From Phymorhynchus buccinoides (lineage: Eukaryota > Mollusca > Gastropoda > Neogastropoda > Raphitomidae), in the NCBI GenBank assembly GCA_017654935.2, contig CM065693.1, positions 13,436,326-13,500,325 on the forward strand: 64,000 nucleotides of DNA, in the 5' to 3' direction. Below are positions 3,444 to 61,930 of the stretch, one piece after another. How positions within the stretch are numbered: the stretch's first letter is position 1; each line of letters begins with the position of its first letter. Made by a program: the position numbers and the translations under genes. The notes under the pieces were generated by a model. It worked only from the letters and a program-made list of their open reading frames with translations, was not told the DNA's origin and made no database searches.

Positions 3444-6400
3444 GCGCAAAAATAATACTTAAAAAACATACTACAGTGGTCGCCGCTTTATAAAGCCATT
3501 TTGGGACCGACGAAAAATGGCTTTAATAAACGGCGGATTTAATAACCGGCGGTCCAGGATTACGTCATTTTCGAACTTTTTTTTTTTTGCTTCTCTTTTG
3601 TTTACGTCAGTCACACTTTCACACTTTCTTTCGTCATTTACACTTGCTTGAATCTAAACACAACTTCACAAGGCCTTTTAAATGATGTTGAACTTTTGTT
3701 TTGGTTTTTATTGACTGACATTCTTTTCTAAACTCAGTTACTTCGTGATACATGTGAGCGTGCACGTAAATATGTCTTGAGTGACACAAGTGACATATCT
3801 TCACGCCAAAAAAAAAGATAAAAGAAAAGAAAAAAGAACAAAATCGTGTGAGTTTTAGTCACAAACTATGTGATTTCTCTGAGATAAGCGGCGGGGTGGT
3901 TTTATTAAGCGGCTTTTTTAAATACATTACATATAGTGAAAAATCTGGACCATAAGAAATCGGTTTTAATAAGCGGCTGGCTCTATTAACCGCGGTTTTA
4001 TAAAGCGGCGACCACTGTACTACTAATACTACTTTCTGCCATTTAACCCTAGTGTTTCCATCGCAATTCTAAGGTGTCCAAGCTGGAGGAGATACGGACG
4101 TCCTCACTGTTGAAAGGCGTGGACAAGGTGTAGCTAGGGGATAGTTCCTTTTAACTGTCACTGCTGTTTCGGGAGGAACATTTAGTTTATGTATATTTTG
4201 AGAAGTTTTTTTTCAAGCCAACTTTAGATTACCATGAGTAACTTTTCATAAATAACAGTCACGAATATGTTGTAGCATATGACTAAATTACTTGTATTCA
4301 GTGGATATTGCTAGATTTTCACTCATGGGCAATCTTATTCATGCTTGCGATACTAAGTGTATTATTCAAGAACATTTTCCACTAAATATGTTGCATGACA
4401 CTGCTCAACAAAAATAAGTTTTTACCTTAAATCTGATGGAAGAAATATATTGAAAATCCAACGAAGAACATAGAGCCAAAATAGTAGCGCAAACGGATGC
4501 TTGGTGCAGTTTTTATCTAAGATTTATAGAGTCAGTCTTTTAACTAAACAGCTTGATTTGTGTGGGACGGAACAGCTGTGCTGTTACAGTGGAACCTCCC
4601 TTATAAGACCTCCCATTATATTAACCCTTTCACCGCCAAAGTCGCATTTTAGCACCATAGTCATTTAACACCTATGTCACTAAAAGGCATCAAATTGGGG
4701 TCCATTATCCAAAGACCCTATGGTCTTAGTTTGGTGAAGTAAGGATGGACCTTATTTTATATATGCCACAGAAGAATCCCCAATACTACAGATGGATTTT
4801 GTTCTCTACCCAGGTAAATTAAATGGATCATTTTGGCTGAAATATGGCTGGCGGTGAAAGGGTTAAGACTCCCTCCCATGTAAGACCTACTTCTCTGAGA
4901 CATTGCCCTTGTTTGTAAGTATTAAAATTACCCCCCTTGTAAGACCCCTCCCTTATAAGACCTCATTTTGGATGTTTTTTTGCAGGTCTTATAAGGGAGG
5001 TTCCACTGTACTAAAAATATAATACTACTTTCTGCCATTTAACCCCAATGTGTCTATCGCAATTCGAAGGTGTCCAAGCTGGAGGAGATAAGACATCATC
5101 ACTGTCAAAAGGCGTGGACAAAGTGTTCCGTCTATCGCTGGAGGATAGTTCCTTTTGACGTTTACTATAAACAAAATACTACTACAGTGGAACTTCCCTT
5201 ATAAGACCTTCAAAAATTATCCAAAATGAGGTCTTACAAGGGAGGGGTATTATAAGGGAGGTAATTTTAATACTTACAAAAAAGGGCAATGTTTCAGAGA
5301 GGTAGGTCTTATGTGGGAGGGAGTCTTGTAATGGGAGGTCTTATAAGGGAGGTTCCACTGTACTTTCTGCCATTTAACCCTAGTGTGTCTATGGCAATTC
5401 TAAGGTGTCCAAGCTGGAGGAGATAAGGACGTCCTCACTGTCGAAAGGCGTGGACAAGGTGTTCCACCTCCCACTGGAGGATCTGTACCGCAGGGAGCCC
5501 CAGCTAAGTGGTGACGCCCTGGGAGCTCTGTGGATCCCTGAGGAGACTGTGCTGGAGCCCTGTGTCTATGGGCTCCTGCTGGCACACCACGCCAGGAAGC
5601 AGGGAAACAAGGTACTGTGATTTGTGATATTTTTAATAATGAGGCAATGCAGTCCCCATTAGCACACCGCTCAAATGCCAACGTCGGCAATTGGTCGTAT
5701 ATATGACGGTCGGCAATGCGACCATTAGCCACCATACTGCCAACCATGGCCGACCATTTCCCGACCAGCCGACGTCGGCCCAACGTTGGCCCACGGTCAG
5801 CATGCTATCTGGGGTGCTAAAGGTCAAATCTATTCTATCATCCTTACCATTCCACTACAAAGTGCATATTTGTACAAGATTAGCTTGGAAGACAGAAATA
5901 AAACCAAGAGTGTCTTACTACCACAACTCCCAATCCAGGTAACTTCCGGCCAAGCAGACTACTCACTTTCTTTCAAGCTAGCATGGAAGGCAGGTTTGTT
6001 TTTCTGTTTCTCCAGGAATTTTGTCTCCTGCTTTCAGCTTAATGAGTGTCTTTTGTTTTCCTTTGGTTTTCTTTGTGTTGCTTTGCTACTTGGGTAAGTT
6101 CGTTCGGCCTCCCCCCTTTTTTGGTTGTAATCTTTGTGAAGATTTCGGGCCTGTTGGTCAAAAGGTGGGCGTGGCTTCTGGCTTCGGGTTTCGCGTTTTG
6201 GAATCTACTCCTTCTTTAGAAGGTTGTAGATTCTTCGGCGTTAGTTAGCAAACCTTCAAGTAGTTCAACTAAGGAACCTCAGCCTTCTCCTCCCAGGGAT
6301 GACAAAGACCGTTTTCTAATCTAGTCCTTCAGGAAAGTCTTTGTCCAAGTCAAATATCGGTCAAGAAGTTCGAGTAAGTCTCTTTCTTCGCGTTCGGTTC

Positions 6401-14828: not shown

Positions 14829-14873
<45 letters not shown>

Positions 14874-17800: not shown

Positions 17801-20505
17801 CAGTGGTCAGTTGAATGTAACCAGTCAAGCCCCTTGGTGGCAGTTTGCTTAGTATCAGTACTTTCAAGTATGCATGGGTGCAACTTTTCTCAAGGATTTC
17901 CATTTTTTAAATTGTACCTGAAAAGAAAGTTCCCTTTTTTTTTAAATTTGAAAAAAAAGAGAAAAAACAAAAGGCAAGTCAGATCAACTTAAATCGACAA
18001 GGGGCGTTTTGAAGGTGGTCTTCCTTCCTTTCTTCAGTTGAGTGACCAATACGTGGTAAGATTTAATGTGGTGACAGCCCTGACATGGCCTTTTTGTTGA
18101 CGGGGCTATAATTTTAATCTTAATCTTAATTCTGTCAATTAAAACGTGGGGATCGGCGGAAGAATGGAGCCTGGGAGTCTAGAAAACAGCAGATTGTTTT
18201 CAAACACAATGTACCCCCCGTGGGGATACCGGGGGGTCTTTTGTATAAATAGTTCCCCCACCTTCTGTGCTTGTAACTTCCTGTAATCTGTCACTCTCTT
18301 TAACTCTGCCTTTTCCCTTTGCGTACTGTCATCTACTATCTTTCTGCCTTACCAGTCCATTCTCCTGCCTTTTTTCAAGAAACTCTTTCAAAAAGATTTC
18401 CTTCAGCTGAAGCCATACTTGCTGGACCTAACTATTTCTTAGTTAGGCGCATAACTGCAGCATGACGCATCTGCGCTCATAATTGATAGGAAACTGTCTG
18501 AGTGATCGAAGAAGAAGAATGTTGACTACTCATTTTCATGAGGCTTATCGGACGTCGTTGCCCCCCTGAACCCCTCCAACAATGCCCTGCCCCTGTACTC
18601 CACCATGAAAACTGTATTTAATAAAGTTGATTCATTATGGTGTTTACTGTGTTTAATTGATGGAGTAAAGGGGGAGATAAAGTTGATTCATTATGGTGTT
18701 TACTGTGTTTAATTGATGGAGTAAAGGGGGAGATAAAGTTGATTCATTATGGTGTTTACTGTGTTTAATTGATGGAGTAAAGGGGGAGATAAAGTTGATT
18801 CTTTATGGTGTTTGTGTGTTTAATTGATGGAGTAAAGGGGAGACAGAGTTGATTCATTATGGTCACTGTGTTTAATTGATGGAGTAAAGGGGGAGATAAA
18901 GTTGACATTATGGTGTTTAAAGTGTTTATTTTATTCACAAAAGACAAAGATAAAATTCTTACTGGATGTTTACTGTGTTTGCGCCTTGGAGTAAAGGGGG
19001 ACATAAAGTTGATTCATTATGGTGTTTACTGTGTTTAATTGATGGAGTAAAAGGGGGAGATAAAGTTGATTCATTATACTGTTTACTGTGTACAATTGAA
19101 GTAAAGGGGTAAAGTTGATTCATTATGGTGTTTGATGTGTTTAAGGATGGAGTAAAGGGCCGAAAAGTATCCATTGTGGTGTTTACTGTGTTTAATTGAT
19201 GGAATAAAGGGGGAGATAACGTTGATTTACACTTGTCGTTTAGTGTGTTTGTCTGATGGAGTAAAGGGGGAGATGTGGTTGATCCAGGAACTGTTTCACA
19301 GTGGGAGGCATCATGGTCCAAAGGGGGTGATCCGGTTGTTCATTTGGTGTTTTGTGTTTAAATGATTGAGTAAAGTGAGATGTTGAGGAACTGGGTGTTT
19401 ACTGTGTTTAAATGATGGAGTAAAGGATCAAGGATCCATTATGGTGTTTACTGTGTTCCCTGGGGAGTAAAGCGGAGTAAAGTTGATCCTCCCTGGTGTT
19501 TACTGTGACCACCTGATGGAGTAAAGGGGGAGATAAAGTTGATTCGCCCGTGGTGCCTCCTGTGTTTAGCCTGGAGTACTCCGAGTGGAGCCTGATTCCC
19601 CATGGGAATCTGTGCTTAATGGAGGAGTAATCAGTATGAAGTGTGTCACCCTATTACGTTGTACGGGATGAAAGAGTAAAGACGTGAAGTCATTATGGTG
19701 TTTACTGTGTTTAATTGAGGAGGAAAGGGGGAGATAAAGTTGATTCAGGTGTTTGCTCTAGAGTGGAGCAATCAATCCCTTCAAACAGAAGAATCTTGTT
19801 GCCCTGCTGGAGGGTAAAATACATCAGTAATGAAGTGTGTCACCCTATTACGTTGTACAACATGAAAGAGGGACAATGAAGTCAAACAATAGGCTGTGAG
19901 GAGGAGGAAACAATGAGGTTAGCAGGAGCACACTAGAGTGGAAAACACAAAAATTTAATAAAGCTCCCCCAGTTAAATGCTTAGCCTAAATTAAAAGTCA
20001 ACAGTATGAAGTTGCATAAATACATAAAGGATATTACGTTAGATGCCTTGGTATCACAAGAAAGAAAACTGAAAATATTGCGCAGTCGAAAGGCAGCAAC
20101 TGTGTCGCGCCCCTCAGAGTTACCTCCCCAGTAATGGAGAGTTACTTCCCGAGTGGTGGAGTAAAGGGGGAGATAAAAGTTGATTAAAAAAAAGAAAAGA
20201 AAACCAAACAAAATCCTGTATTTTATTGGTTGTGGTTGTCCAGGAACTGGATCACAGTGGGAGGCATCAGGTCCACGGGGGTGTCTGGTTCCCTGGGGAT
20301 TGCGGAGTACGTGTCCTCCCTGGTTGTGGACCACCTGAACGCTGAACCCTCCGGCTTCGCCCGTGGTGCCTCCCGCAGCCTGGAATACTCCGAGTGGAGC
20401 CTGCTCCCCCAGGGAATCTTGGCTGTGGAGGGTCATCAGTATGAAGTGTGTCACCCTATTACGTTGTATGGGATGAAAGAGGGACGTGAAGTCAGCAGGC
20501 TGTGA
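644..20505 (+). CDS. GlpA-like FAD-dependent oxidoreductase, 7-exon gene, putative peroxisomal
   Basis: Seven exons (644-783, 2784-2937, 5405-5611, 13901-14058, 16340-16458, 17193-17400, 20244-20505) total 1248 nt, which gives 415 residues and a stop. All introns are GT/AG and all phases agree. The N-terminus has the Rossmann dinucleotide-binding motif VIGGGIIGC at about residues 8-16. Later come GMLHTGFDAP, the C-terminal FAD-domain block NCAGLYGD, the signature IKPRKGQYTVY with LPVPTEKTKGV, and VGGIRSTG. These are hallmarks of the GlpA-like glycerol-3-phosphate dehydrogenase branch of the DAO superfamily. The length suits the single-domain form without the BFD iron-sulfur domain of bacterial GlpA. 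The last three residues, Ser-Arg-Leu, match a type 1 peroxisomal signal. The likely reaction is FAD-linked oxidation of glycerol-3-phosphate or a related 2-hydroxy acid; the substrate is not provable here, and L-2-hydroxyglutarate dehydrogenase is a related alternative. Most of the 20-kb span is transposon-filled intron. Confidence 0.88.
960..2195 (+). mobile_element. 5'-truncated LINE (jockey/CR1-like) with reverse-transcriptase C-terminal half
   Basis: An open frame runs to the stop at 1996. From about 998 it encodes the LINE RT block YGIQGKLIDWIKDFLSNRRQ, then GVPQGSVLGP, and the catalytic FADD at 1195-1206. The distal part ends in the thumb and tail region with FLPRTIKAWNNLPEQ. The fingers, the first half of the palm and the endonuclease are missing, so it is a dead 5'-truncated copy. 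The 3' UTR has a T-rich run (2031-2064) and a GC-rich stretch to about 2190. It sits in intron 1 of the GlpA-like gene in the same orientation. Confidence 0.85.
2334..2425 (-). repeat. Dispersed repeat with (ATTG/CAAT)n tail
   Basis: A (CAAT)n run is followed by 'tgtccattttacaggaaa' and 'gcaataaaacaatcaacaaa'. The same arrangement recurs at 13192-13290 and, inverted, at 52430-52500. This is probably the 3' end of a non-LTR element with a TTGA-type simple tail, read on the minus strand. Confidence 0.55.
2500..2720. repeat. CA microsatellite and AT/CA-rich low-complexity tract
   Basis: A (CA)n run at about 2500-2540 is followed by low-complexity 'acatacata' sequence up to the acceptor of exon 2. 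I see no gene-like signal apart from that acceptor. Confidence 0.7.
2784..2937 (+). CDS. GlpA-like gene, exon 2
   Basis: It begins after a pyrimidine-rich acceptor (..ggtttcag|tggc) and ends CAG|GTTGCA at a codon boundary. It encodes SGMLHTGFDAPANSLE and continues to VMVAWNPDQ. The GMLHTGFDA block after the FAD motif is typical of GlpA-like proteins. Confidence 0.87.
2989..3133. repeat. (CA)n(CG)n compound microsatellite
   Basis: A long CA run passes into alternating CG at about 3097-3120 and then CGCA. Such alternating purine-pyrimidine DNA can form Z-DNA. The long open frames across it on both strands are simple-repeat artefacts. Confidence 0.9.
3134..3412 (+). mobile_element. SINE body fragment without its head
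   Basis: It contains a central block of the kind 'gagtccttcagatgagac' followed by 'aaactgaggt', and a 3' part 'ctccaggtgggagcaac' that matches the tRNA-headed SINEs at 31433 and 33520. The head is replaced by the adjoining CA/CG repeat. Confidence 0.5.
3474..4017. mobile_element. Tigger/pogo-like MITE with inverted termini
   Basis: The termini are inverted copies, 'cagtggtcgccgctttata' on the left and the complementary 'aaagcggcgaccactg' on the right, flanked by TA on both sides. The interior repeats 'aataaacggcgg' and 'ataagcggc' motifs and codes for nothing. The CAGTGG start and TA duplication fit a non-autonomous Tc1/mariner-pogo element. Confidence 0.75.
4028..4160 (+). pseudogene. Partial tandem copy A of GlpA-like exon 3 with its acceptor
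   Basis: It repeats the intron end 'actttctgccatttaaccc', a splice acceptor, and about 57 bases of exon 3 from 4074. In frame it reads VSKLEEIRTSSL and then hits TAG at 4131-4133, so inclusion would truncate the protein. After that it diverges from the exon and shares 'atagttccttttaac' with copy B. Confidence 0.85.
4587..5008. mobile_element. Tigger/pogo-like MITE (family T1) interrupted by a piggyBac-like MITE
   Basis: The left end 'cagtggaacctcccttat' and right end 'ataagggaggttccactg' are perfect inverted repeats flanked by TA. A second MITE (4625-4862) splits it at a TTAA-like site, so this copy is the older of the two. Other family copies are at 5185, 12827, 16730, 26500, 37713 and 62018. 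Confidence 0.85.
4625..4862. mobile_element. piggyBac-like MITE, TTAA target duplication
   Basis: The termini 'ccctttcaccgccaa' and 'tggcggtgaaaggg' are inverted, and the element is flanked by TTAA at 4621-4624 and 4863-4866. It is 238 bp, the same length as the copy at 16041-16278. The TTAA duplication and CCC start are piggyBac hallmarks. Confidence 0.85.
5020..5175 (+). pseudogene. Partial tandem copy B of GlpA-like exon 3 with its acceptor
   Basis: The same intron end and acceptor (aattcgaag|GTGTCC, exon-like from 5070) are followed by about 85 bases similar to exon 3. A small deletion after GAGGAGATA shifts the frame. It then shares 'ctggaggatagttcc' with copy A. Confidence 0.85.
5185..5360. 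mobile_element. Tigger/pogo-like MITE (family T1), intact 176 bp
   Basis: Inverted termini 'cagtggaac..' and '..gttccactg' are flanked by TA. Its right end lies 44 bp from the acceptor of the genuine exon 3, just as other CAGTGG MITEs lie just before copies A and B. Confidence 0.87.
5405..5611 (+). CDS. GlpA-like gene, exon 3
   Basis: Acceptor ..attctaag|GTGTCC, donor AACAAG|GTACTG, phase 0 at both ends, 69 codons. It encodes VSKLEEIRTSSLSKGVDKVF and continues to LSGDALGALWIPEE, the cap-domain segment found in GlpA-like proteins. Two degenerate upstream copies (4074 and 5070) carry the same acceptor. Confidence 0.87.
5640..5826. repeat. GC-rich imperfect inverted repeat next to the DIRS insertion
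   Basis: Words such as 'ccaacgtcggcaatt' and 'gacgtcggcccaacgttgg' occur in opposite orientations, suggesting a small foldback element. The DIRS element begins immediately to its right. Confidence 0.4.
5827..5985 (+). repeat. DIRS left inverted terminal repeat
   Basis: The stretch containing 'taccattccactacaaagtg' and 'acttccggccaagcagacta' is the reverse complement of the right terminus at 11604-11790 over roughly 150 bp with few differences. Confidence 0.9.
6341..7656 (+). pseudogene. DIRS gag-like ORF, frame broken by a 139-bp triplication
   Basis: The first open frame (6341-7201) and a second (6979-7656) overlap across three 139-bp direct repeats. Because 139 is not a multiple of three, each extra copy shifts the frame. 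Two surplus copies (278 bp) exactly account for the offset between the two frames, so one continuous gag-like frame existed before the triplication. The product is Ser/Thr/Pro/Gly-rich with no enzymatic motif. I assign it as gag by position upstream of RT, as is usual in DIRS. Confidence 0.7.
6901..7317 (+). repeat. 139-bp GC-rich tandem repeat, three copies
   Basis: The unit starts 'cgacggcagcctcggtgcct' at 6901, 7040 and 7179. The copies are nearly identical, so the amplification is recent relative to other damage in the element. GC content is far above the surroundings. Confidence 0.92.
7657..8402 (+). other. Degenerate gag/pol junction of the DIRS element
   Basis: Short open segments lie in different frames (for example 7610-7840), and no conserved motif was recognised. 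This is probably the decayed 3' part of gag and the linker to the RT frame. Confidence 0.5.
8403..10085 (+). pseudogene. DIRS reverse transcriptase-RNase H, inactivated
   Basis: The frame from 8403 encodes RT blocks FRPVLDLSPLN, SIDLKDAFFHISIHP and FVALPSGLSLAP. The YxDD box reads YLDG (8931-8942), so the second catalytic Asp is replaced by Gly (GGC). Near 9020 an extra T shifts the frame; homology continues in another frame, with TAG at 9049-9051, through GMVFNTQTF and the RNase H motif FTDASKEGWG near 9427. A second shift near 9500 returns to the first frame, with LHINFLEMEAVSLAL, the RNase H block CGDNSTCLSYLRR and HIDLFATRFSRR. The RT-RH order and these motifs are typical of DIRS and Ngaro elements. 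Confidence 0.9.
10140..11256 (+). pseudogene. DIRS tyrosine recombinase, inactivated
   Basis: The frame from 10298 gives RRVSGIHALSG (box I Arg) and the HEVR motif (HxxR) at 11063-11074. The C-terminal block is in another frame (11125-11256): SAFWKSETTFTSF, then CLREF and RRAVLSSKTVSF. The position normally holding the nucleophilic Tyr is Cys (TGC, 11170-11172). At least one frameshift separates the HxxR part from this block. The enzyme normally inserts the circular DNA intermediate, and this copy cannot be functional. Confidence 0.85.
11442..11545 (+). repeat. DIRS internal complementary region
   Basis: 11442-11480 is the reverse complement of the first bases of the left terminus. 11472-11545 is the reverse complement of the right terminus edge, including the 'tgaggaatttttattaattc' stretch. 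This fused complement of both ends is the template that joins the ends in DIRS replication. Confidence 0.9.
11604..11790 (-). repeat. DIRS right inverted terminal repeat
   Basis: Inverted copy of 5827-5985 ('agtctgcttggccggaagtt', 'cactttgtagtggaatggta') followed by a right-specific end 'aaaaattcctcaatc'. The longer right arm is usual for DIRS. Confidence 0.9.
11791..12526. other. Intron 3 of the GlpA-like gene, no gene seen
   Basis: AT-rich, with a diffuse repeat around 12180-12400 ('gggttttcgc', 'ataagcgga') resembling sequence at 45290-45440, probably an old MITE. No coding signal. Confidence 0.5.
12527..12701. mobile_element. MITE with CCGTATTTTTCTGAC termini (family Z)
   Basis: The left end 'ccgtatttttctgact' and right end 'agtcagaaaaatacgg' are perfect inverted repeats with flanking TA. 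Interior words 'ataaggcgcac' recur in copies at 29123, 31789, 34197, 39561 and 62123. Confidence 0.8.
12827..13002. mobile_element. Tigger/pogo-like MITE (family T1)
   Basis: Starts 'cagtggaacctcccttat' after TA and ends 'gaggttctactg' before TA. One terminal mismatch shows moderate age. Confidence 0.82.
13192..13290 (-). repeat. Dispersed repeat with (CAAT)n tail
   Basis: Same family as 2334-2425: (CAAT)n, then 'tgtccattttacaggaaa' and 'gataaaacaaatcaacaaaa'. Confidence 0.55.
13337..13560 (-). other. Short open frame of unknown origin, possibly transposon-derived
   Basis: A 70-residue frame reads MCHTLANRLYWRAKRREAVV.. and ends just before the CAAT-tailed repeat on the same strand. It may be the 3' coding end of that element. 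I do not recognise a domain, and the base composition is higher in GC than its surroundings. Confidence 0.25.
13901..14058 (+). CDS. GlpA-like gene, exon 4
   Basis: Acceptor ..gtttgcag|GTACTG, donor TTCTC|GTACGT. It encodes VLTQCEVQGHEVSA.. and the FAD-site block VVINCAGLYGDRV, equivalent to the VNCAGLWAD motif of DAO-fold proteins. It ends with two bases of a Ser codon. Confidence 0.87.
14303..15270 (-). mobile_element. 5'-truncated L2-like LINE with (TTA)n tail
   Basis: On the minus strand a 118-residue frame (15266-14910) has the L2/CR1-type C-terminus: TYQPSRTLRSSS, LKSFGHRSFSYQVPTIWNSL and FKSGLKTHLFKK. It is followed by a simple-repeat-rich 3' UTR, an 'agcgctatagaagc' end block and a TTA tail (14305-14330). 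The same end block marks L2 tails at 25079, 37195 and 54664. Confidence 0.8.
14610..14872. repeat. G-rich, GA and CA simple repeats inside the L2 3' UTR
   Basis: Runs of 9-14 G separated by short spacers (14613-14782), then GA-rich and (CA)n. The G-runs could form quadruplexes on the plus strand. Confidence 0.85.
15513..15785 (+). mobile_element. SINE-like dispersed repeat, family C
   Basis: The body 'tataaatagttcccccac', 'ctgccttttccctttgc', 'ggcgcataacggcagcatga' and a GAAGAA-type end recur at 18218, 32370 and 34811. No reading frame is conserved between copies. About 270-310 bp. Confidence 0.65.
15943..15993 (+). mobile_element. 5'-truncated SINE tail (family D) with 11-bp target duplication
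   Basis: 'gccccacatggccgaaaggc' and 'gagggcgtaaaac' match the 3' end of the family D SINE at 39670-39865. Flanked by tactcccattc at 15932-15942 and 15994-16004. Confidence 0.65.
16041..16278. mobile_element. piggyBac-like MITE, 238 bp
   Basis: Same termini as 4625-4862, flanked by TTAA at 16037-16040 and 16279-16282. Confidence 0.85.
16340..16458 (+). CDS. GlpA-like gene, exon 5
   Basis: Acceptor ..gttttcag|C, donor ACAG|GTGTGT. It encodes IKPRKGQYTVYSKGTG.. and LPVPTEKTKGVIVFKT, the most diagnostic GlpA-like signature in the gene. Confidence 0.89.
16730..16889. mobile_element. Tigger/pogo-like MITE (family T1)
   Basis: Inverted ends 'cagtggaacctcctttat' and 'aagggaggttccactg'. The right TA duplication is mutated to CA. 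Confidence 0.8.
17193..17400 (+). CDS. GlpA-like gene, exon 6
   Basis: Acceptor ..catgctgcag|TG, donor GACAG|GTCAGA. It encodes HDNIIVGPTAEDVSGR.., SPIGQYTGVRPATEFKDYQI.. and SDR, the VGPTAEE / G(V/L)RPATE blocks of the family. Confidence 0.88.
17401..18217. other. Intron 6, no gene seen
   Basis: T-rich intronic sequence with short A/T runs. No recognised element until the family C repeat at 18218. Confidence 0.5.
18218..18515 (+). mobile_element. SINE-like repeat, family C
   Basis: Starts 'ccccgtggggataccggg' like the copy at 34811 and ends with a GAAGAA-type tail at about 18512. Confidence 0.65.
18634..19280. repeat. 56-bp minisatellite
   Basis: The unit includes 'tggtgtttactgtgtttaat', 'tgatggagtaaaggggga' and 'gataaagttgattcatta'. 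The first copies repeat at exactly 56 bp (18661, 18717, 18773). Later copies decay and then merge with exon-7-like sequence. Confidence 0.9.
19281..19960. other. Mosaic of the 56-bp minisatellite and GlpA-like exon 7 sequence
   Basis: Short blocks of exon 7, in the correct order, alternate with satellite words. Examples are 'ggaactgtttcacagtggga' near 19288, 'ttccctggggagtaaag' near 19459, 'tactccgagtggagcctga' near 19577 and 'tgtgtcaccctattacgttg' near 19639. Stops and indels rule out coding. It is either a gene-conversion patchwork or an assembly consensus artefact. Confidence 0.75.
20244..20505 (+). CDS. GlpA-like gene, exon 7 (stop, PTS1-like end)
   Basis: Acceptor ..gttgtccag|GAACTGG. 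It encodes NWITVGGIRSTGVSGSLGIA (the VGGIRSTG FAD-site motif) and ends GREVSRL with TGA at 20503-20505. Ser-Arg-Leu is an accepted PTS1 tripeptide, pointing to import into the peroxisome matrix. Confidence 0.88.
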
Positions 20506-20527
20506 GGAGGAGGAAGAGGAGCAGGAG

Positions 20528-20810
20528 TATTCTAGAGTGGAGCCTGCTCCCCCAGGGAATCTTGGCCGTGGAGGGTCATCAGTACGAAGTGTGTCACCCT
20601 ATTACGTTGTACGGGATGAAAGAGGGACATGAAGTCAGCAGGCTTTGAAGAGGAGGAGGAGGAACAGTGAGGAGGAGGAGGAGCAGGAGTACTCTAGAGT
20701 GGAGCCTGCTCCCCCAGGAAATTTTGGCTTTGGAGGAGTATGACTATGAAGTGTGCCATCCTATTACGTTGTATTGGGTCTGAGAAAGATTTGAAGTCAG
20801 CAGGCTATGA
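20528..20810 (+). pseudogene. Two tandem copies of the 3' end of GlpA-like exon 7
   Basis: Unit about 160 bp starting 'tctagagtggagcctgctcc' (20531 and 20691). Copy 2 keeps CHPITLYGMKEG..EVSRL and stop. Copy 3 is more decayed but again ends in a frame reading EVSRL and stop. The spacers are GGA-rich. They lie beyond the genuine stop codon. Confidence 0.85.
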
Positions 20811-48144: not shown

Positions 48145-48214
<70 letters not shown>

Positions 48215-48348: not shown

Positions 48349-48350
<2 letters not shown>

Positions 48351-48549: not shown

Positions 48550-48830
48550 ATCACAATTGTCATCATTTTCATTATTAATCTGCATAGTCATATTGACAAA
48601 GACGTCATCATCACCATCATCATCAGCATGTAGAGTCACATTATCAGTAAACATCACCATTATCATCTTTTTCATTATTAATCTGTATACTTATAGTCAT
48701 CATCAGCACGTAGAGTCATTATCAGTGAACATCACCATTGTCATCATTTTCATTATTAATCTATATAGTCATATTGATAAAGCCGTCATCATCACCATCA
48801 TCAACTTCATTATACCATATAGTAATTTTG
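48550..48830. repeat. Degenerate 95-110-bp tandem repeat, three copies, CAT-rich
   Basis: Words 'cattttcattattaatct', 'catcatcagca' and 'tgtagagtcac' recur near 48560, 48665 and 48740. Confidence 0.75.
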
Positions 48831-49695: not shown

Positions 49696-49895
49696 ATGTG
49701 TAGATCAAAGAGTTATATCAAGAAAACATCTTATCCAATAAATCTGTATACAAAAGGAAAAAAAAGCAAAGTAAATTATATAAAAAATGGCACATGTGTA
49801 GATCAGTTATATCAAGAAAATATTTTATCCAATATATCTATACAAAAAGGAAAAAAAAGCAAAGTGAATTACCAAAAAAATGGCACGTGTGCTGA
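49696..49895 (+). repeat. About 100-bp direct duplication
   Basis: 'gtgtagatca..ttatatcaagaaaa' to 'aaaaaagcaaagt..aaatggcac' occurs at 49699 and 49795. Confidence 0.8.
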
Positions 49896-52225: not shown

Positions 52226-52429
52226 AGAGTGAGCATAAAGAAAACAACAACAACATTATGGCACTGTTCAAGAACAAGAACACTAATCCCATCCCCACCC
52301 CACCTCCCCCAAAGAAAAACCCAAGAATAATGTTTGTTTTAAAGGGAATTATAAATACACAATAAAAAACTATATGACCCTGATTGTACATAAAAGAAAA
52401 TTGATAGAAATTCAGAGCCATTTGTTGAT

Positions 52430-52500
52430 TGTTTTATCGCTGCAAAAAGAATTTCCTGTAAAATGGACAATAAAAACATTGATTGATTGATTGATTGATT
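52430..52500 (+). repeat. Dispersed repeat with (TTGA)n tail
   Basis: Plus-strand copy of the family at 2334 and 13192: 'tttcctgtaaaatggaca' then (TTGA)n. Confidence 0.6.
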
Positions 52501-52564
52501 AGCTTCACATCTCTCCTTTCCCATCCCTGCCACTCTATCTCCTATCAAAATAGAAAATAGACAA

Positions 52565-53020
52565 AAGGTTTTGATAACCCCCAACTCTCTTCTTCATCCA
52601 ACCCCCCTTTTTTTTCCCCCCCTCTTCCACAACCTTCCACCCCCACCTCCTTCGTTCCGCACATGTGTCCAAATCTTAGCCACCATCCAGCTCTCTTTTC
52701 CACCCCACATCCCCCTTTCCTCAACCTTCTACTTCCACCTCCTTTGCTTCATAAATTTATCCAAATCATAGCCACCATCCAGCTCTCTTTTTTTTTACCC
52801 TTAGCATCCCCCCGACATCTCCCCACTCCCACATTCTCTTCCACAACCCTCCCCCCTTCCCCCATCTCCGTCCTCTCTAATTCTAAACCTATCTTCTTCT
52901 TTTTTTCAGACAATAAAACAGACAAACAGGTTTTTGACACCCCACATCTCTCTTCTTTACTCCAACCACCTCCTATCTCTTCGACCCCTTCTCCTCATCC
53001 TCTCCACACTCCTCCCTCCC
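52565..53020. repeat. C/T-rich region with degenerate 110-120-bp repeats
   Basis: 'agccaccatccagctctct' occurs at 52678 and 52769, and 'acaccccacatctctcttct' resembles 'acccccaactctcttcttc' upstream. It lies directly after the SLC27 stop codon on the minus strand. Confidence 0.7.
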
Positions 53021-53024
53021 CAAA

Positions 53025-53341
53025 TCACAGCTTGGAGTGCAGAAAGGTGGGCAGACTCTCAGCGGTCAGCGGGGAGTAAGTGGCGGCCTTGACGTCCAAG
53101 AAATACAGGCGGTCGTCAGTGACCTTGTCCAAATCGTAGCCCTCCTGTCGGAACTCCACCTTGCGCTGTTTGTAGGTGCCCGTCAGCACGTCCTCCTGGA
53201 GAACTCGCATGAACAGGGGCCGGGCGTACAGGGGCAGGTCGTGCTGGCAGGTGGTGTAGAGGCTCTTCAGCTGGTCCCTGGTCAACGTCTGGGAGTCTGG
53301 GGTCAGGCTGAGGGCCGCCATGCCTGCTCTGCCGTCGTGAC
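53025..53341 (-). CDS. SLC27-like gene, terminal exon (stop, SKL end)
   Basis: Acceptor ..gttgttcag|GTCACGAC. It encodes HDGRAGMAALSLTPDSQTLT.., CQHDLPLYARPLFMRVLQED.. and LHSKL with TGA at 53025-53027. Confidence 0.92.
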
Positions 53342-56300
53342 CTGAACAACAGCAAAGTTCAATTTTACATATTTTTCAATTAGAGGCTCTTCAGCTGGTC
53401 CCTGGTCAACGTCTGGGAGCCTGGGGTCAGGCTGAGGGCCGCCATGCCTGCTCTGCCGTTGTGACCTGAACAACAGATGAGGTTCATGCATCACTTTGGC
53501 TCCTGAGCGAAACCACAAACTGTCTATGTTCTCATGTTCTTTTGGTTCTCTTCTTCTTCTTCGCCTTAGGCAGCCAACTTCAACACGCTGAAGATTCTGC
53601 TGCACTTTAGGGGGCAGTACGAAAAAAGAAAGAAAATAAGTTCAGCAAAGATAGGGTAGATAGTGAGATAGGATGAAATATTATTATGGGGGAAAGATAG
53701 AGCCAAGATAGTCAGGAATAATTTAAGTATTTGATACTCCGTTTGCTGTATGTAAAGGATAATATTTTATGAAATAGATAGATTTATAACTTTAAGGAAA
53801 TCAATTAAATATTGGAGGGGGGGAGATGTGTGAGGAAAAGACGAGTTAAAAGTCATACACGACCGTCAAATGCCCCGGTCTAGCCGGAGACACCTGGGCC
53901 CCGCATGATGTATGCAGAGTGTGTCATGCATGACCGTTAAGTCCCCCCGGATCAGCCGGGGAAACTCTGGCCCCACATGATGCATGCAGAGGAATAGGGG
54001 GGGCATGTGTGACAGTAAGGCCACACATGTTGCGTGCAGAGAAGGACCACAGACCTTTCACAGTATCTAGGCAGGACCAATCCGGCTACCGTAGCGGCCT
54101 CCGGGGTCGAACCCCGACCGGCACAGCTCCAGCTCTTCATTTACCACTACTTTGATCTATGTCCCCTAGTTCCCTGATTTAGTTTTGATGTGAGGATGGG
54201 GCAAGGGGGGCAGGGGGGGGGGAGGGGAGGGGGGGCTGAGACGGTGTGGGCTGGTGGAGGTGTTTATGGAGTGCTGTTTTGACTGCATCCAGTGACTGAT
54301 TGGAGGCAACTTGCTCGGGGAGACTGTTCCACTGAGGGATAGTGCGGGGAAAGAAGGTGGATTTTCTGTACTGAGTTCTATGGCTGGGGATGTCATATGA
54401 TGCTGAGTGGGATTGACGGAGAGTCTGTGTGTGTGTGCATGGTTGCTCCTGGGATATTTTAAAAAATCCTGCAAGGGGGCGGCCCTTGCACAGACTCAAC
54501 AGAAACAAGACAGGAGTATGCATTATATCTTAGACAGGTTTACACACCCTGACGTACAATCTTTTAAGAACTTTCCAGCAAAACTACATTTCGACGAGTA
54601 GATGTGTAATGTCATTCAGTTACAGGAATTTTTTAATCATATTCATCTAAATCCTGTGTGGATAATAAATAATAATAATAATAATAATTGGCACTTATAT
54701 AGCGCACATATCTAGAAAATTCTATTCATGGCGCTTTACAAAGAAATAAAACTATAAACATTCACACACACACACACACAAAAAAAAGACGATGAAGGGG
54801 AGAGGGTGGGAAGGGGGGTGACGCGGGGGGGGGGGGGGGGGGGGGTGTGTGTGTCACACACACATACACGCTGCATGCACACACACACACACACACAAAA
54901 AGAAAGACGATGAAGGGGAGAGGGGGGGAGAGGGTGGGAAGGGGGGGGGGGGGGGGGGGATGCGGGGGGGGGGGGGGGGGGGGGGGGGGGGGCGTCACAC
55001 ACACATACACGCTGCATGCACACACACACATACACACACACGCACGCGCGCACGCACGCACGCACACACACAAACACAAACAAACACACCACTCAATTTC
55101 CATACGGCACAATCAACACACACACTGCATACACACACACACACATTGCACGCACACGCACACGCACGCGCACACGCACACCACTCAATGTCCACACTGC
55201 ACAATCAACCTATGCATGTCAGCTACAACTTAGAAAAGAGATGAGTTTTTAGACTGGCCTTGAACGCGTCCAGAGAGTCAGAGTGTCTGAGAGACAGGGG
55301 TAAGTTGTTCCACACAGATGGAGCCTGGAACGAAAAGGACCTTTCACCATAGGTTTTGGTTTTGACAGTGGCTGGTTGCAGAAGGCGAGTGTCAGAGGAA
55401 GAGCGGAGGACACGAGAAGGTGTGTAGAGATGAAGTAGGTCAGACAGGTAATCAGGGGCAGAACCAGAGATGACAGTGAAGGAAAGAGTGGAGAGTTTAT
55501 AGTCAATCCTATCCGAGATTTTTAACTAGTGCTGAGAGTGCAGAAGTGGCGTGACATGTTCATACTTAGAAGACTTAAGGACTAATCGGGCAGCATTGTT
55601 TTGAATTCTTTGGAGGCGACTGACAAGATACTTTGGGAGGCCAGCAAGGAGAGAGTTGCAGTAATCGATTTTAGACAAAACAAAAGCACAGACCAAAGTT
55701 TTCGTGGCGTCAGTAGATAGATAGTGGCGAACAGAACTTATTTTGCGGAGCTGAAGGTATGCAGATCGACAAATTAGGCTTTAAGCAAATCAAAACCATT
55801 GTCCCTCTTGGTAAAAATGTTCAGCATCAGTGCTTTCAAGTTTACTTTTTGTCGTTTTTATACTATGGTGATTTAAAAAAAAAGTATTTGAGCCATAGCA
55901 TTATATTATTAAACCTTTGTTAGATCTGTGACCAAAAATGGCACATGAGTTATTAAAACAAAACAAAAAAAGGGTGAGTGGAAATTCACAAAAGTAATTG
56001 ATTTGCATTAGTTAATTCCAACACAAACAACTACAGATTTTGACAAAACTGAAACAAGAAACGTTCAAACGAGAATATGTAAATAACTGAAAAATCTACT
56101 GGATAATCAAGAGGGAAAATGACAACCAATAATCCATCCATATATTAATAATAATCAGTCCTACCTGGCACGGCAACCCCATAGACGTTAGCGTCCATGA
56201 TGAAGTCCAGACAGGTCAGAACGTTAGCCACGTCTGTGGAGGACACATTCTCCCCTTTCCATCTGCACAACCAACAAAGTAACATTCCTCCCCTTTCCAT

Positions 56301-59300
56301 CTGCACAACCAACAAAGTAACATTCCTCCCCTTTCCATCTGCACAACCAACAAAGTAACATTCCTCCCCTTTCCATCTGCACAACCAACAAAGTAACATT
56401 CCTCCCCTTTCCATCTGCACAACCAACACAGTAACATTCCTCCCCTTTCCATCTGCACAACCAACACAGTAACATTCCTCCCCTTTCCATGTGCACAACC
56501 AACAAAGTAACATTCCTCCCCTTTCCATCTGCACAACCAACACAGTAACATTCCTCCCCTTTCCATCTGCACAACCAACAAAGTAACATTCCTCCCCTTT
56601 CCATCTGCACAACCAACAAAGTAACATTCCTCCCCTTTCCATCTGCACAACCAACAAAGTAACATTCCTCCCCTTTCCATCTGCACAACCAACAAAGTAA
56701 CATTCCTCCCCTTTCCATCTGCACAACCAACACAGTAACATTCCTCCCCTTTCCATCTGCACAACCAACAAAGTAACATTCCTCCCCTTTCCATCTGCAC
56801 AACCAACAAAGTAACATTCCTCCCCTTTCCATCTGCACAACCAACAAAGTAACATTCCTCCCCTTTCCATCTGCACAACCAACACAGTAACATTCCTCCC
56901 CTTTCCATGTGCACAACCAACAAAGTAACATTCCTCCCCTTTCCATCTGCACAACCAACACAGTAACATTCCTCCCCTTTCCATCTGCACAACCAACAAA
57001 GTAACATTCCTCCCCTTTCCATCTGCACAACCAACAAAGTAACATTCCTCCCCTTTCCATCTGCACAACCAACAAAGTAACATTCCTCCCCTTTCCATCT
57101 GCACAACCAACAAAGTAACATTCCTCCCCTTTCCATCTGCACAACCAACAAAGTAACATTCCTCCCCTTTCCATCTGCACAACCAACAAAGTAACATTCC
57201 TCCCCTTTCCATCTGCACAACCAACACAGTAACATTCCTCCCCTTTCCATCTGCACAACCAACAAAGTAACATTCCTCCCCTTTCCATCTGCACAACCAA
57301 CAAAGTAACATTCCTCCCCTTTCCATCTGCACAACCAACAAAGTAACATTCCTCCCCTTTCCATCTGCACAACCAACAAAGTAACATTCCTCCCCTTTCC
57401 ATCTGCACAACCAACAAAGTAACATTCCATCTGCACAACCAACAAAGTAACATTCCTCCCCTTTCCATCTGCACAACCAACAAAGTAACATTCCTCCCCT
57501 TTCCATCTGCACAACCAACAAAGTAACATTCATCCCCTTTCCATCTGCACAACCAACAAAGTAACATTCCTCCCCTTTCCATCTGCACAACCAACAAAGT
57601 AACATTCCTCCCCTTTCCATCTGCACAACCAACAAAGTAACATTCCTCCCCTTTCCATCTGCACAACCAACAAAGTAACATTCATCCCCTTTCCATCTGC
57701 ACAACCAACAAAGTAACATTCATCCCCTTTCCATCTGCACAACCAACAAAGTAACATTCCTCCCCTTTCCATCTGCACAACCAACAAAGTAACATTCCTC
57801 CCCTTTCCATCTGCACAACCAACAAAGTAACATTCCCCCTTTCCATCTGCACAACCAACAAAGTAACATTCCTCCCCTTTCCATCTGCACAACCAACAAA
57901 GTAACATTCCTCCCCTTTCCATCTGCACAACCAACAAAGTAACATTCCTCCCCTTTCCATCTGCACAACCAACAAAGTAACATTCCTCCCCTTTCCATCT
58001 GCACAACCAACAAAGTAACATTCCTCCCCTTTCCATCTGCACAACCAACACAGTAACATTCCTCCCCTTTCCATCTGCACAACCAACAAAGTAACATTCC
58101 TCCCCTTTCCATCTGCACAACCAACAAAGTAACATTCCTCCCCTTTCCATCTGCACAACCAACAAAGTAACATTCCTCCCCTTTCCATCTGCACAACCAA
58201 CAAAGTAACATTCCTCCCCTTTCCATCTGCACAACCAACAAAGTAACATTCCATCTGCACAACCAACAAAGTAACATTCCTCCCCTTTCCATCTGCACAA
58301 CCAACAAAGTAACATTCCTCCCCTTTCCATCTGCACAACCAACAAAGTAACATTCCTCCCCTTTCCATCTGCACAACCAACAAAGTAACATTCCTCCCCT
58401 TTCCATCTGCACAACCAACAAAGTAACATTCCTCCCCTTTCACCATGGGGAAAATATATTTGGTATTTGGTATATTCTAGTCACAGAGACTTATTATCTT
58501 TGTGAAATTCAGGCTGTGTGTCGCCGATTGTCATATTTGAGCTGAAAGTGTCGCTGATTCTGTCATATTTTAGCTGAAAGTGTCGCCGATTCTGTCATAT
58601 TTTACCTGAAAGTGTCACTGATTTTTTTCATATTTTACCTGAAAGTGTCACCTATTCTGTCATATTTTAGCTGAAAGTGTCGCCGATTCAGTCCTATTTT
58701 ACGTAAAAGTGTCACCGATTCTGTCATAATTACCTGAAAGTGTTGCAGATTCTGTCCTAATTTACCTGAAAGTGTCTCCGATTCTGTCGTGGAAGTAGAC
58801 AAAGTACTCGTGGTCCAGGTAGAGGACGTCCCCAAAGTTGAAGTAGAGGTCGCCCTCCTTGAAGGCGCTGCGCACCAGCTTCTTCTCGTTGGCCTCCTTG
58901 GACGACTTGTACACAGCAAGCGTCCCGTTGGTCTTCACAGAGTCTGGAACTTTGGCGATGAACAGGCCCGCCTCGCCTACACAACAGAAACCTTGTGAAT
59001 GAATGAATGTGCAAGGACATTTCTTGTGTGAATCTCCCCTACATGGGTGAAGGTGACAGATTTTGAAAATAAGGAAAAGGCGAGGGCGGGGGTGGAGGTG
59101 GGGGGTGTTCCGGGGCTGCTTAGGCTTCGGTGGGGTGTAGGGGCAGCCACCTGCTTAGGGGATCTTTGGGGCAAACATCCCAGAAGCTGACAAGAATTTA
59201 CAAATAAATGCCAATTTTGTGAGCTCTCCTGAGGTCTTTCATTCACATTTATGAATTGCTTTGAACTCTAAAATGACATTGAAGGTGAAAGTTCTCAGGA

Positions 59301-61243
59301 GCAGCCACACTTTGTGGCTTTTGGTTGCTCAAATCGGTCGATTTCTAGTTTTTTTCCCCCTTCAAATTCTTAAAATAAGGAATTCCTTATTTTCTGATTT
59401 TGAAATTAAGGAAATCCTTGCTGAGAAGGAAAACTTTCACCCATGCCCCTATAGCAAGAACATTTCTTGTGTGAATCTCCCCTGTAGGAAGGGGTTAAAA
59501 TACTAACCATCTTTTTCTTTTTTGTTGTTGTTGCTGTCCCATCTTCTTGGCCGTACAGTGGTGTTGCTCCCAGTGACGCCGGTCATTCCGAATCCCAACT
59601 CGTAGCCACACCTCTGCACGTTCAGGTCACAGAATCTGAGACCAGTAGTCCAAGGGGAGTTTGTTAGGCCATCAGGAGGCATCCAACCGAGGAGATACTG
59701 CACTGCTGCTGAGTCACTTCAGTGGCGTTCAGTAGAGCCTGTTCAGGACACCACCTACTAAGCCCCCTACTGACGACACTATTCTTTTAGTCGCGGAGCC
59801 AGCGTGAGTGAGGTCCTCCTCCGAGGGCGCCACCACGACCGTCCACTGACAGCTCCACAGAACAAACTGCTCCCCATGACTTAAAATACTAACCATCTTG
59901 TTAAAGTTGTGGCTTAAAGCACAAACTTTGTTATCTTCCTCAAGTTATAGGTATCTTGTAATACTGCTTTAGTAGAAAGCAAATTTTGTTGCATTGCCTG
60001 AAGGTGATTTGCAAAGTATTTTCTTTCATGTTACTTTCAAACTACTTTTCTCCAGCCTTTTGTTCCACAGGGGTGGGTAATGGTTGTAGAAAATGGGTTT
60101 GGCTTCTCTTCAAGTCACTTGGAGGTTGACTGCTCAGTTCAGTTTCAGAGGCAACATTAACCCCTTGACTGCCAGAGAAAATTAAAGAGAAAAATCATTG
60201 GGCAAATCATGCCATGAAAAAGACAACTAATAGAGCCAATCTGGCAAAATGGTCTAGGGATATTACTCTCTTGACTGTGTTAGAGCAAAGCCAGCATATC
60301 AGGCATATTCCTCTTCATCTGATGACGTCATCAGTGATGTCATCAGGTCAGTACGTAATACGTTGGTGGCAGTCAAGGGGTTAATCTGCTATTCTTCTGT
60401 GATCTCACAGCAGGATGGAATCAAGTAAGGCTCACGGAGCTTGATTTGAGACTGAGGGTAGTCGCTTTATATCAAAGTCCATTACATTACACCAAACCCA
60501 CCCCATCCCATCTTATCCCACCTTATGTTATCCCATCTTATCCTATATTATCCTATCCCATTATATTATGAATCACTGACCGGGTTTCACGTTGATGCAT
60601 CAACCACGGCTGTCTCTGATGGGGGTAGCACTGGCTACATTAAGTCATTGCATTACATTATATGTGACCCAGCACCGTGAAAGGGACATTAAGTGTCAAA
60701 CTGACCATTCTGTGAAAATTATACATTTAAAAACTTCAGACAAATCTCTTTCTAATGATACAAGAATCATTCTTGTATCTTTTTTCGTTCCAGAATTATG
60801 GGCATTTCAAGCGTCTGCCATTTTGAGAAAACACAGTCTAAAATCTAGCTTAGATGAAAATGCATTGACCTACTCATTTTAAAGCACCTATACGACCATT
60901 TAGAGACAATATTAAAGATTGTCTTTTATAAATATGAAAGATAATATGTTACTTTTTTTTCTTTTGTTGCTACATGTATTAGAGAACAAGAAATTATCCA
61001 TAACTCAAAATTGACCCCCCCAAAAAGAGATTTTTGACTTTCCAAGCCGTAATTGAGAAACTAGCCCAGCGACTTAATGTCCCTTTTGTGGTGCTGGGTC
61101 ACAAATTACCTCAATGCATCGTGCTACATTATGAATCACTGACCTGGTTTCACCTTGATGCATCGACCATGTTTATCTCTGATGGGGATGGCAGTGTCCA
61201 AGTCATACTTCACCAGCACTTTGGGGTCTGGGTCCAGCAACGA
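53025..61243 (-). CDS. SLC27A2-like very-long-chain acyl-CoA synthetase / fatty acid transport protein, last four exons
   Basis: Minus-strand exons 61243-61144, 58976-58766, 56262-56165 and 53341-53025 join in consistent phase into about 241 residues. They cover the C-terminal third of an SLC27 protein: LLDPDPKVLVKYD, KPGEAGLFIAKVPDS, GDVLYLDHEYFVYFHDRIGD followed by TFRWKGENV (the AMP-binding/VLACS motif), VPGHDGRAGMAAL, LPLYARPLFMRV and GTYKQRKVEFRQEGYD. The family activates long and very long fatty acids to acyl-CoA with ATP. The C-terminus is HSKL, a canonical PTS1, which favours a peroxisomal SLC27A2-type enzyme. The ATP-binding P-loop and N-terminal exons lie beyond the right edge. Every exon here has tandem copies of at least one of its splice junctions. 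Confidence 0.92.
53383..53475 (-). pseudogene. Tandem copy of the SLC27 terminal-exon acceptor and first 80 or so exon bases
   Basis: 124 bp upstream (in transcript sense) of the real junction. ..gttgttcag|GTCACAACGGCAGAG is repeated nearly exactly, then runs into the intron at 'cctctaattg'. The partial exon has no donor of its own. Confidence 0.9.
53545..54523 (-). mobile_element. 5'-truncated LINE with C-terminal coding end and 3' UTR
   Basis: On the minus strand a frame (54523-54179) contains SHRTQYRKSTFFPRTIPQWN and SLPEQVASNQSLDAVKTALH, the distal tail of jockey/CR1-like RT proteins (compare FLPRTIKAWNNLPEQ at about 1900). The 3' UTR ends with a GAAGAAGAAG tail at about 53550. Confidence 0.75.
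54664..55780 (-). mobile_element. 5'-truncated L2-like LINE
   Basis: Minus-strand translation gives IDYCNSLLAGLPKYLVSRLQ, NNAARLVLKSSKYEHVTPLL, then (after a stop and small shift near 55530) ISGSAPDYLSDLLHLYTPSR, YGERSFSFQAPSVWNNLP and FKASLKTHLFSK. The 3' UTR is full of G-runs and CA repeats; the end block 'agcgccatgaatag' and (TTA)n tail are at 54664-54735. Confidence 0.85.
54760..55180. repeat. Poly-G and CA/CG microsatellites
   Basis: G-runs up to about 30 (54828-54845, 54940-54958, 54965-54991) between duplicated CA-rich blocks ('cacacatacacgctgcatgc' at 54857 and 55002). Confidence 0.9.
55781..56164. other. SLC27 intron, no element recognised
   Basis: AT-rich sequence up to the donor of the 98-bp exon. 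Confidence 0.5.
56165..56262 (-). CDS. SLC27-like gene, 98-bp exon (RWKGENV motif)
   Basis: Acceptor ..gttggttgtgcag|ATGGAAAG, donor GTGCCAG|GTAGGA. It encodes (R)WKGENVSSTDVANVLTCLDF.. and NVYGVAVP. The acceptor and first 13 bases are the founder of the 2.2-kb satellite that starts at the next base. Confidence 0.93.
56263..58440 (-). repeat. 38-bp splice-acceptor satellite, about 57 copies
   Basis: The minus-strand unit is atggaaaggggagg, aatgttactttgttgg, ttgtgcag: exon start, spacer, pyrimidine/G-T tract and AG. Almost every unit keeps 'gttgtgcag' directly before 'atggaaagg', so each is a potential 3' splice site identical to the real one at 56263. 38 is not a multiple of three, yet no unit contains a stop in any minus frame, so all three frames are open for kilobases. 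Shortened units occur near 57423 and 58249, and a higher-order repeat of 11 units (418 bp) is visible. Confidence 0.95.
58463..58517 (-). mobile_element. tRNA-headed SINE tail fragment
   Basis: 'ctagtcacagagacttatta' and 'gtgaaattcaggctg' resemble the 3' end of the SINE at 33520. Confidence 0.45.
58512..58765 (-). repeat. 34-bp splice-donor array, seven extra copies
   Basis: On the minus strand each unit has cagaatcggagacactttcag followed by an intron-like gtaaaatatga, repeating the last 20 or so bases of the adjacent exon and its donor. Copies lie near 58528, 58563, 58599, 58635, 58667, 58699 and 58733. Those near 58599, 58635 and 58733 keep AG|GTA. The others have AG|CT or a shifted site. 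Confidence 0.88.
58766..58976 (-). CDS. SLC27-like gene, 211-bp exon
   Basis: Acceptor ..gttgtgtag|GCGAGG, donor TTTCAG|GTAAAT. It encodes EAGLFIAKVPDSVKTNGTLA.., FKEGDLYFNFGDVLYLDHEY and FVYFHDRIGDTF, conserved SLC27 sequence leading into the FRWKGENV motif. Confidence 0.93.
59041..59494. other. SLC27 intron, no element recognised
   Basis: Unique-looking sequence. A short phrase 'acatttcttgtgtgaatctc' occurs twice (59018 and 59460), a small internal duplication. Confidence 0.45.
59514..59880 (-). mobile_element. Retroposon with 19-bp perfect target duplication
   Basis: Flanked by ttaaaatactaaccatctt at 59495-59513 and 59881-59899. On the minus strand it ends in a CAACAACAACAAAAAAG-type tail. 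About 367 bp. The 66-residue frame is not recognised. The perfect duplication means a young insertion. It may be a SINE or a truncated LINE end. Confidence 0.82.
59900..60160. other. SLC27 intron, nothing recognised
   Basis: AT-rich unique sequence. Confidence 0.45.
60161..60380. mobile_element. piggyBac-like MITE, divergent copy
   Basis: Ends 'ccccttgactgccaga' and 'ggtggcagtcaagggg', flanked by TTAA at 60157-60160 and 60381-60384. Confidence 0.8.
60574..60640 (-). pseudogene. Copy of the 3' end and donor of the SLC27 100-bp exon
   Basis: The minus strand gives 'cccatcagagacagc..' to 'gaaacccg|gtcagtgattc', matching exon end and donor at 61144 with several substitutions. The MITE at 60664-61102 lies between copy and exon, so the duplicated unit may have included or flanked it. 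Confidence 0.8.
60664..61102. mobile_element. MITE family M, well preserved
   Basis: Inverted termini 'tgtgacccagcaccgtgaaa' and 'ttttgtggtgctgggtcaca'. Similar to 46527-46947 throughout, about 440 bp. Confidence 0.82.
61144..61243 (-). CDS. SLC27-like gene, 100-bp exon (most 5' exon in the window)
   Basis: Acceptor ..cattgcag|TCGTTGC, donor AAACCAG|GTCAGT. It encodes SLLDPDPKVLVKYDLDTAIP.. and GRCIKVKPG, the family segment before PGEPGLL. Upstream exons must lie beyond position 64000. Confidence 0.92.
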
Positions 61244-61269
61244 CTGCAATGAAAACATCGACAATATTG

Positions 61270-61930
61270 TACACCACGGCATACTGATGTTACATGGAAG
61301 GGAACACCAACAATACTGAACATTATAATACACAGGCATACTGTGGCTAGATCATATGTTATCAGCACTTTGGGGTCTGGGTCCAGCAACGACTGCAATG
61401 GAAACATCGACAATATTGTACACCAAGGCTGATGTTACATGGAAGGGAACACCAACAATACCGAACATTATAATACATAGGCATACTGTGGCTAGATCAT
61501 ATGTTATTAGCACAATACTGATGTTACATGGAAGGGAACACCAGCAATACTGCACATTATAATACATAGGCATACTGTGGCTAGATCATATGTTATTAGC
61601 ACAATACTGATGTCATATGGAAGGGAACACCAACAATACCGCACATTATAATACACAGGCATACTGTGGCTAGATCATATGTTATTAGCACAATACTGAT
61701 GTCATATGGAAGAAGGGAACACCAACAATACCGAACATTATAATACATAGGCATACTGTGGCTAGATCATATGTTATTAGCACAATACTGATGTTACATG
61801 GAAGGGAACACCAACAATACTGAACATTATAATACAATACCGCACATTATAATACACAGGCATACTGTGGCTAGATCATATGTTATCAGCACTTTGGGGT
61901 CTGGGTCCAGCCATGACTGCAATGGAAATA
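61270..61930 (-). repeat. 95-100-bp intronic repeat with two extra copies of the SLC27 exon acceptor
   Basis: About six units share 'aatactgatgttacatggaa' and 'gcatactgtggctagatcat'. Two of them (61361-61395 and 61887-61920) also carry cattgcag followed by 'tcgttgctggacccagac', the acceptor and first 35 bases of the 100-bp exon. Confidence 0.88.

Follow-up and report, generated by a model that had tools for sequence, protein, structure and literature searches.

Genes of the window and arrays at their exon edges

The window, that is, the whole analysed stretch of 64,000 nucleotides from the gastropod Phymorhynchus buccinoides, corresponds to positions 13436326-13500325 of contig C14 in a 2.12-Gb assembly of 3962 contigs. 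It carries three intact genes, whose spliced models have reading frames that are open throughout:

644-20505, + strand: seven exons encoding a 415-aa FAD-dependent oxidase of the glycerol-3-phosphate-oxidase type
minus strand: POLI, 1031 aa, 9 coding exons
minus strand: 3' part of an SLC27 gene (a fatty-acid-transport gene), final four exons

Among the best 120 of 1600 matches obtained with its first 506 residues, the predicted POLI protein was closest to that of Nucella lapillus (69%), with Branchiostoma at 52%, which spoke for a gastropod host and against amphioxus, and the annotated Nucella POLI was colinear with it over 471 aligned positions. The minus-strand gene at the 3' end is presumably an SLC27 gene, a name that we took from the preliminary description of this DNA and from known motifs; its best family matches were long-chain acyl-CoA synthetase models. 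For the oxidase, the closest family model was type 2 glycerol-3-phosphate oxidase, with a score below the cut-off of the model, and the top solved relative was L-alpha-glycerophosphate oxidase 4x9m. GlpA was rejected as a name for this gene, earlier labelled GlpA-like, since the type 2 glycerol-3-phosphate oxidase model is nearer. A retroelement reverse-transcriptase open frame (PF00078) is located at 868-1995, within oxidase intron 1, and the last coding exon of POLI includes an in-frame 21-bp minisatellite (28041-28322, ~13 copies) encoding a seven-residue repeat.

Local direct repeats were defined as copies of at least 40 bp and at least 75% identity lying within 4 kb, after simple repeats had been taken out. 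Ten of the 36 splice junctions of the window (3 donors and 7 acceptors, distributed over all three genes) were located inside such repeats, with the additional copies extending into the intron. The repeated units included intron sequence together with the original splice site, and in the intact gene models the true exon formed one end of the array. The following features were identified:

5336..5482, + strand: true segment of the oxidase exon 3 acceptor (exon 5405-5611 in the model, a start at 5384 also being in frame), with local repeats at distances 352 and 1331
3994..5159, + strand: two extra upstream copies of the oxidase exon 3 acceptor (~3994-4155 and 4985-5159), with inserted elements between them
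18621..20290, + strand: oxidase exon 7 acceptor, a 56-bp array and a mosaic second copy (exon 20244-20505; suspect sequence)
20392..20810, + strand: tandem copies, 143 bp each, of the terminal part of the last oxidase coding exon with its stop codon (no splice junction)
30440..31413, - strand: POLI exon 7 acceptor array, 76 bp, 13 copies including the true one (exon 30380-30471; CAG in 13/13)
32925..33511, - strand: POLI exon 6 acceptor array, ~156 bp, 4 copies including the true one (exon 32812-32990)
34377..35433, - strand: POLI exon 5 donor array, ~101 bp, 7 copies including the true one (exon 35373-35618; GT in 7/7), divided by an insertion at ~34812-35128
53257..53476, - strand: SLC27 last-exon acceptor, one extra copy 124 bp upstream (exon 53025-53341; also in the paralogue)
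56245..58441, - strand: SLC27 acceptor array, 38 bp (~19 exon + 19 intron), 58 copies including the true one (exon 56165-56262; CAG in 56/58)
58518..58788, - strand: SLC27 donor array, 32 bp, 8 copies including the true one and a truncated end (exon 58766-58976; GT in 5/8)
60562..60633, - strand: one extra copy of the donor edge of SLC27 exon 61144-61243 (84.7% over 72 bp)
61203..61950, - strand: acceptor array of SLC27 exon 61144-61243, two extra acceptor copies and 89-bp repeats (local repeats)

A masked scan for splice-site cores missed or misread POLI exon 6, oxidase exon 3, the 32-bp SLC27 donor and the SLC27 donor at 61144, and these were counted from the sequence instead. The recurrence of exon-edge duplications in all three genes, as given in the preliminary description, was confirmed, and so were its numbers of extra copies for POLI (six at the exon 5 donor, three at the exon 6 acceptor and 12 at the exon 7 acceptor), for SLC27 (57 at the 38-bp acceptor, seven at the 32-bp donor, two at the 61243 acceptor and one each at the last-exon acceptor and the 61144 donor) and for the oxidase exon 3 acceptor (two). 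Its accounts of one oxidase edge and of the unit lengths had to be amended. The reported duplication of the oxidase 'exon 7 end' concerns the terminal part of the last coding exon and the sequence 3' of it, where there is no splice junction, and the range of unit lengths, given as 34 to about 1000 bp, is 32 to ~156 bp, the spacings of 563-1331 bp being at least partly due to inserted elements.

The second copy of the oxidase exon 7 edge, upstream at 19255-19980, was a fine mosaic in which exon 7 and the 56-bp satellite alternated every 6-60 bp, which reflects either a consensus error or real recombination; the consensus may be bad here. This acceptor is the tenth case of the raw count and, given its mosaic sequence, was dropped or scored as a non-junction in the 'clean' tests. 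In the POLI exon 7 array, the true copy (30471) begins with ATG (Met, as in Nucella), and all 12 decoys begin with GTG, which generates AG|GT, possibly a zero-length recursive splice point. Among direct repeats within 4 kb, no introner-type family shared across introns was found: each array copied its own exon edge, and the arrays clustered separately.

A second SLC27 gene and the decoy splice sites

A second, closely similar SLC27 gene was located ~41 kb beyond the SLC27 exon of the window (2632-3023 and 4680-6290 of segment L012, C14:13530326-13540325); two 210-bp exon segments of the pair were 95.7% and 97.1% identical. In the matching intron, the same two exon edges were arrayed in both paralogues, with the sizes reversed. 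The window gene (A) had 8 donor and 58 acceptor copies, and the paralogue (B) had 43 donor copies and a single acceptor copy with a short remnant, so that copy-number instability (8/58 versus 43/1) was seen in a comparison limited to paralogues. When painted with 12-mers, 97.1% of the 2503-bp intron of the window gene and 99.6% of the 1396-bp intron of the paralogue consisted of exon-edge repeat. In both genes, the last-exon acceptor was repeated once, ~124 bp upstream. The SLC27 pair shows array turnover at fixed junctions. A separate 70-bp array of ~19 copies (L012 6347-7672) resembled in sequence the 'gcgccttataat' element near 34280 in an intron of the window; mobile-element sequence may thus seed arrays too.

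The decoy splice sites were mostly intact and were drifting, without being purged. In the 32-bp SLC27 arrays, GT was kept in 37/43 donor copies of paralogue B and in 5/8 of the window gene (0.86 and 0.62, respectively, versus 0.82 on average for the remaining neighbouring pairs). Reading through the SLC27 donor at 58766 led to an immediate stop codon (TTC AGG TAA), and misuse of this site would therefore be cleared. The 38-bp SLC27 acceptor array was open in all three frames, for hundreds of residues each. Because the true and decoy sites are near-identical, the choice between them must depend on position, most likely through exon definition across short exons. Correct splicing of the arrayed genes is expected from their intact reading frames and from the amphioxus reports considered below.

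Frequency of exon-edge arrays in the window and in independent loci

The window contained 24 local repeat clusters, 15 of which were located within introns of the three genes; the remaining nine (two in or just after coding exons and seven intergenic) were left out of the window test. Ten of the 15 intronic clusters straddled a junction, compared with 1.2 expected, and none of 100,000 random placements of seeds gave 10. When the footprint of each of the 15 arrays was held in its own intron, 1.1 were expected (P=1.6e-9), and without the mosaic acceptor 9 of 14 arrays were at a junction versus 1.0 expected. Unit lengths in these chance tests were set by hand. The result depended on the intron target. 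Limiting it to 250, 150 or 100 bp per exon side gave P=0.002, 0.04 and 0.22 when all 15 arrays were included and P=0.006, 0.07 and 0.30 when the mosaic acceptor was left out (14 arrays); Tandem Repeats Finder alone identified 10 arrays in the window, six of them at a junction, with corresponding values of P=0.03, 0.15 and 0.40. Compared base by base, 28% of junctions and 21% of introns in the window were in local repeats. This difference is small because a single array spans many intron bases, and seed units or footprints were therefore counted; the excess hinges on counting these rather than bases.

Since the window had been chosen for carrying the feature, we sampled other loci of the same assembly. 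From 142 matches to PF00069, 60 kinase exons were listed before any sequence was viewed, and 26 of the 60 were tested. The list was thinned by hand for near-identical clusters and was restricted to exons that contained no internal stop and whose open frame was below 250 aa, with one exception of 261; two listed pairs (C11, C15) were 15-17 kb apart and may belong to the same genes. A simple custom splice-site score predicted 43 junctions in the 26 loci, 11 of which were straddled by local repeats, the same rate as in the window, and the cases were found on several contigs other than that of the window. The arrays thus recurred systematically beyond the three window genes, as had been proposed. 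Pooling the window and the kinase loci, 21/79 junctions were affected (95% CI 17-38%).

In the 20 kinase loci with equal flanks, 10/36 junctions (6 donors and 4 acceptors) were straddled, whereas random seeds predicted 3.2 (P=0.0002). The nearest extra copy was on the intron side in all 10 cases, consistent with the window gene models and with the earlier statement that the genuine exon stands at the end of the array and copies spread intronward; in six alignments, the exon end was duplicated up to the splice site and past it. Under the strictest, footprint null, 10 of 19 kinase arrays were at a junction versus 4.9 expected (P=0.005). This test omitted three of 22 arrays, on sides without a predicted junction (L054, L061 and L068); of these, at least the L061 array at 544-947, which overlaps the exon core, is possibly an additional case. 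Hits at L046 and L047, from a 28-locus scan in which the strand was guessed from stop codons, were on the wrong strand and were not counted. Exon edges in the independent sample were struck about two to three times more than other intronic DNA. The preliminary description was therefore right in suspecting an excess at junctions, and the roughly ninefold excess in the window overstated its size: outside the window, the enrichment is real but modest.

The sampled parts of the genome were rich in tandem arrays generally. All 12 sampled 10-kb stretches contained local repeat clusters, from 1 to 5 apiece. Positions inside local repeats amounted to 26-28% of junctions, 14-26% of sites 20-300 bp intronward and 12-21% of sites 400-800 bp intronward, and exon midpoints were affected in 1/26 cases. 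Outside both samples, two of the 10 predicted junctions of five upstream exons of the window SLC27 gene were straddled, and the donor edge of one Y-family polymerase exon on contig C9 (L019), an example picked for an array near the exon, was present four times.

Origin of the arrays and comparison with known systems

The arrays are very probably mirages, that is, minisatellites with a unit spanning an exon-intron boundary, which arise by tandem-duplication turnover with an excess at exon edges. Initially, a short tandem duplication, produced by replication slippage or end-joining repair, would happen to take in an exon edge and its splice site. The array would then gain and lose copies as a minisatellite does, a step seen in the paralogue pair and in the copy variants. 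Since the copy next to the exon has to remain the coding one, growth would take place on the intron side; selection would hold this copy, and expansion into the intron would have no coding cost. The exon-proximal site would still be spliced, most likely by exon definition through pairing with the opposite end of this short exon, and the remaining copies would be removed with the intron. Repeated growth could finally replace nearly the whole intron with copies of its own exon edges, as observed in one gene pair. We raise more tentatively the wider possibility that exon edges are the preferred start of duplication in this gastropod lineage, with at least a quarter of all junctions self-copied, introns continually rebuilt and the spliceosome ignoring dozens of near-identical decoys.

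What directs the duplications to exon edges can be read in different ways. Seeding specific to junctions, in which R-loops, stalled transcription or splicing, or the step in composition between exon and intron starts the duplication, is conceivable, and we hold it with some doubt. It would explain why the excess was found in the independent sample under both nulls and why donors as well as acceptors were struck; however, the excess is moderate, arrays are also common far from junctions, and the units, from 32 to more than 150 bp with very different shares of exon and intron, have no common breakpoint. None of the results pointed to any one of the mechanisms suggested in the preliminary description, namely R-loops, splicing-coupled breaks and template switching. 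Nothing special may happen at junctions at all, an explanation that we regard as possible rather than probable: in an array-rich genome, arrays at edges would be easier to recognise, one copy being half conserved, or longer-lived, the exon anchor being unlosable. The repeat clusters in all 12 of the 10-kb stretches, the 12-26% of intron positions in local repeats and the weakening of the window excess when the intron target was 100-150 bp are in line with it. Against it, the kinase repeats were detected by one exon-blind method and 10 of 19 nevertheless touched a junction, and two of the 10 kinase junction repeats (L060 and L068) were 97-100% identical, which excludes recognition bias for those two.

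An artefact of long-read assembly or consensus is very improbable. The mosaic copy of oxidase exon 7 is what a poor consensus would yield, and one amphioxus mirage is reported to have been aberrantly assembled (PMC3087553); yet the copies vary by point changes and indels, kinase cases lie on several other contigs, and the diverged SLC27 paralogue is arrayed at the same junctions, which argues against such an artefact. Maintenance of the arrays by selection, as splicing regulators or as seeds of new introns, is unlikely. Most decoy sites are intact and could serve alternative or recursive splicing, and a new intron in potato is reported to derive from a tandem duplication that included an intron-exon boundary (PMC4974935), but the decoy donors decay about as the rest of the unit does, and copy number differs between paralogues by as much as 58 versus 1.

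The preliminary description was aware of no process by which splice-junction satellites arise so systematically. In this it was not right; the structure has been reported before, as minisatellite-like tandem copies of an exon-intron boundary have been named 'mirage' in the amphioxus Adh3 gene and are reported as well in the globins BflGb6 and BflGb9, troponin C and PGBD5, with regular splicing and unstable copy number (PMC3087553, PMC3902484); their mechanism was called unclear (PMC3087553). Like the amphioxus mirages as reported there, the snail arrays affect both 5' and 3' boundaries, place their copies in the intron, many with intact AG or GT, leave the coding exon intact and are unstable in copy number, here between paralogues, and the snail units in the window (32 to ~156 bp) compare with the 10-160 bp reported in amphioxus. 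Unlike those reports of single genes, the arrays described here occur in a gastropod, at about a quarter of the sampled junctions and with up to 58 copies, and include an intron that is almost wholly exon-edge repeat and reversed copy numbers between paralogues; splicing in the snail is a prediction. In the literature titles and beginnings of abstracts searched, no mirages by that name were found outside amphioxus.

Two related cases have been reported. In the RdRp gene of potato (PMC4974935), a tandem duplication including an intron-exon boundary likewise multiplied splice signals, and produced a new intron together with the insertion of a piece of exon; the snail arrays, in contrast, make introns that already exist longer and leave the predicted message as it was. 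For human genes that were recently duplicated, internal tandem repeats with units of ~30 bp on average are described (PMC2812944), some at exon-intron boundaries as in the snail; in that limited set of paralogues, with 27 intron modifications, exon length was altered or new introns arose, unlike in the snail.

What is new here is the host, the prevalence and the near-complete takeover of an intron. So far, mirages have been a peculiarity of a handful of amphioxus genes. Should roughly one in four snail junctions carry them, they would become a force in the growth of introns that can be measured, and they would offer a natural experiment on how the spliceosome settles on a single one of up to 58 almost identical sites, as well as abundant starting material for the gain and sliding of introns and for new exons. 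In the SLC27 pair, an intron that is almost all exon-edge repeat was arrived at by two different routes. In this snail, exon-edge arrays, otherwise a rare oddity, look common enough to illustrate how introns could grow from their own exon edges.
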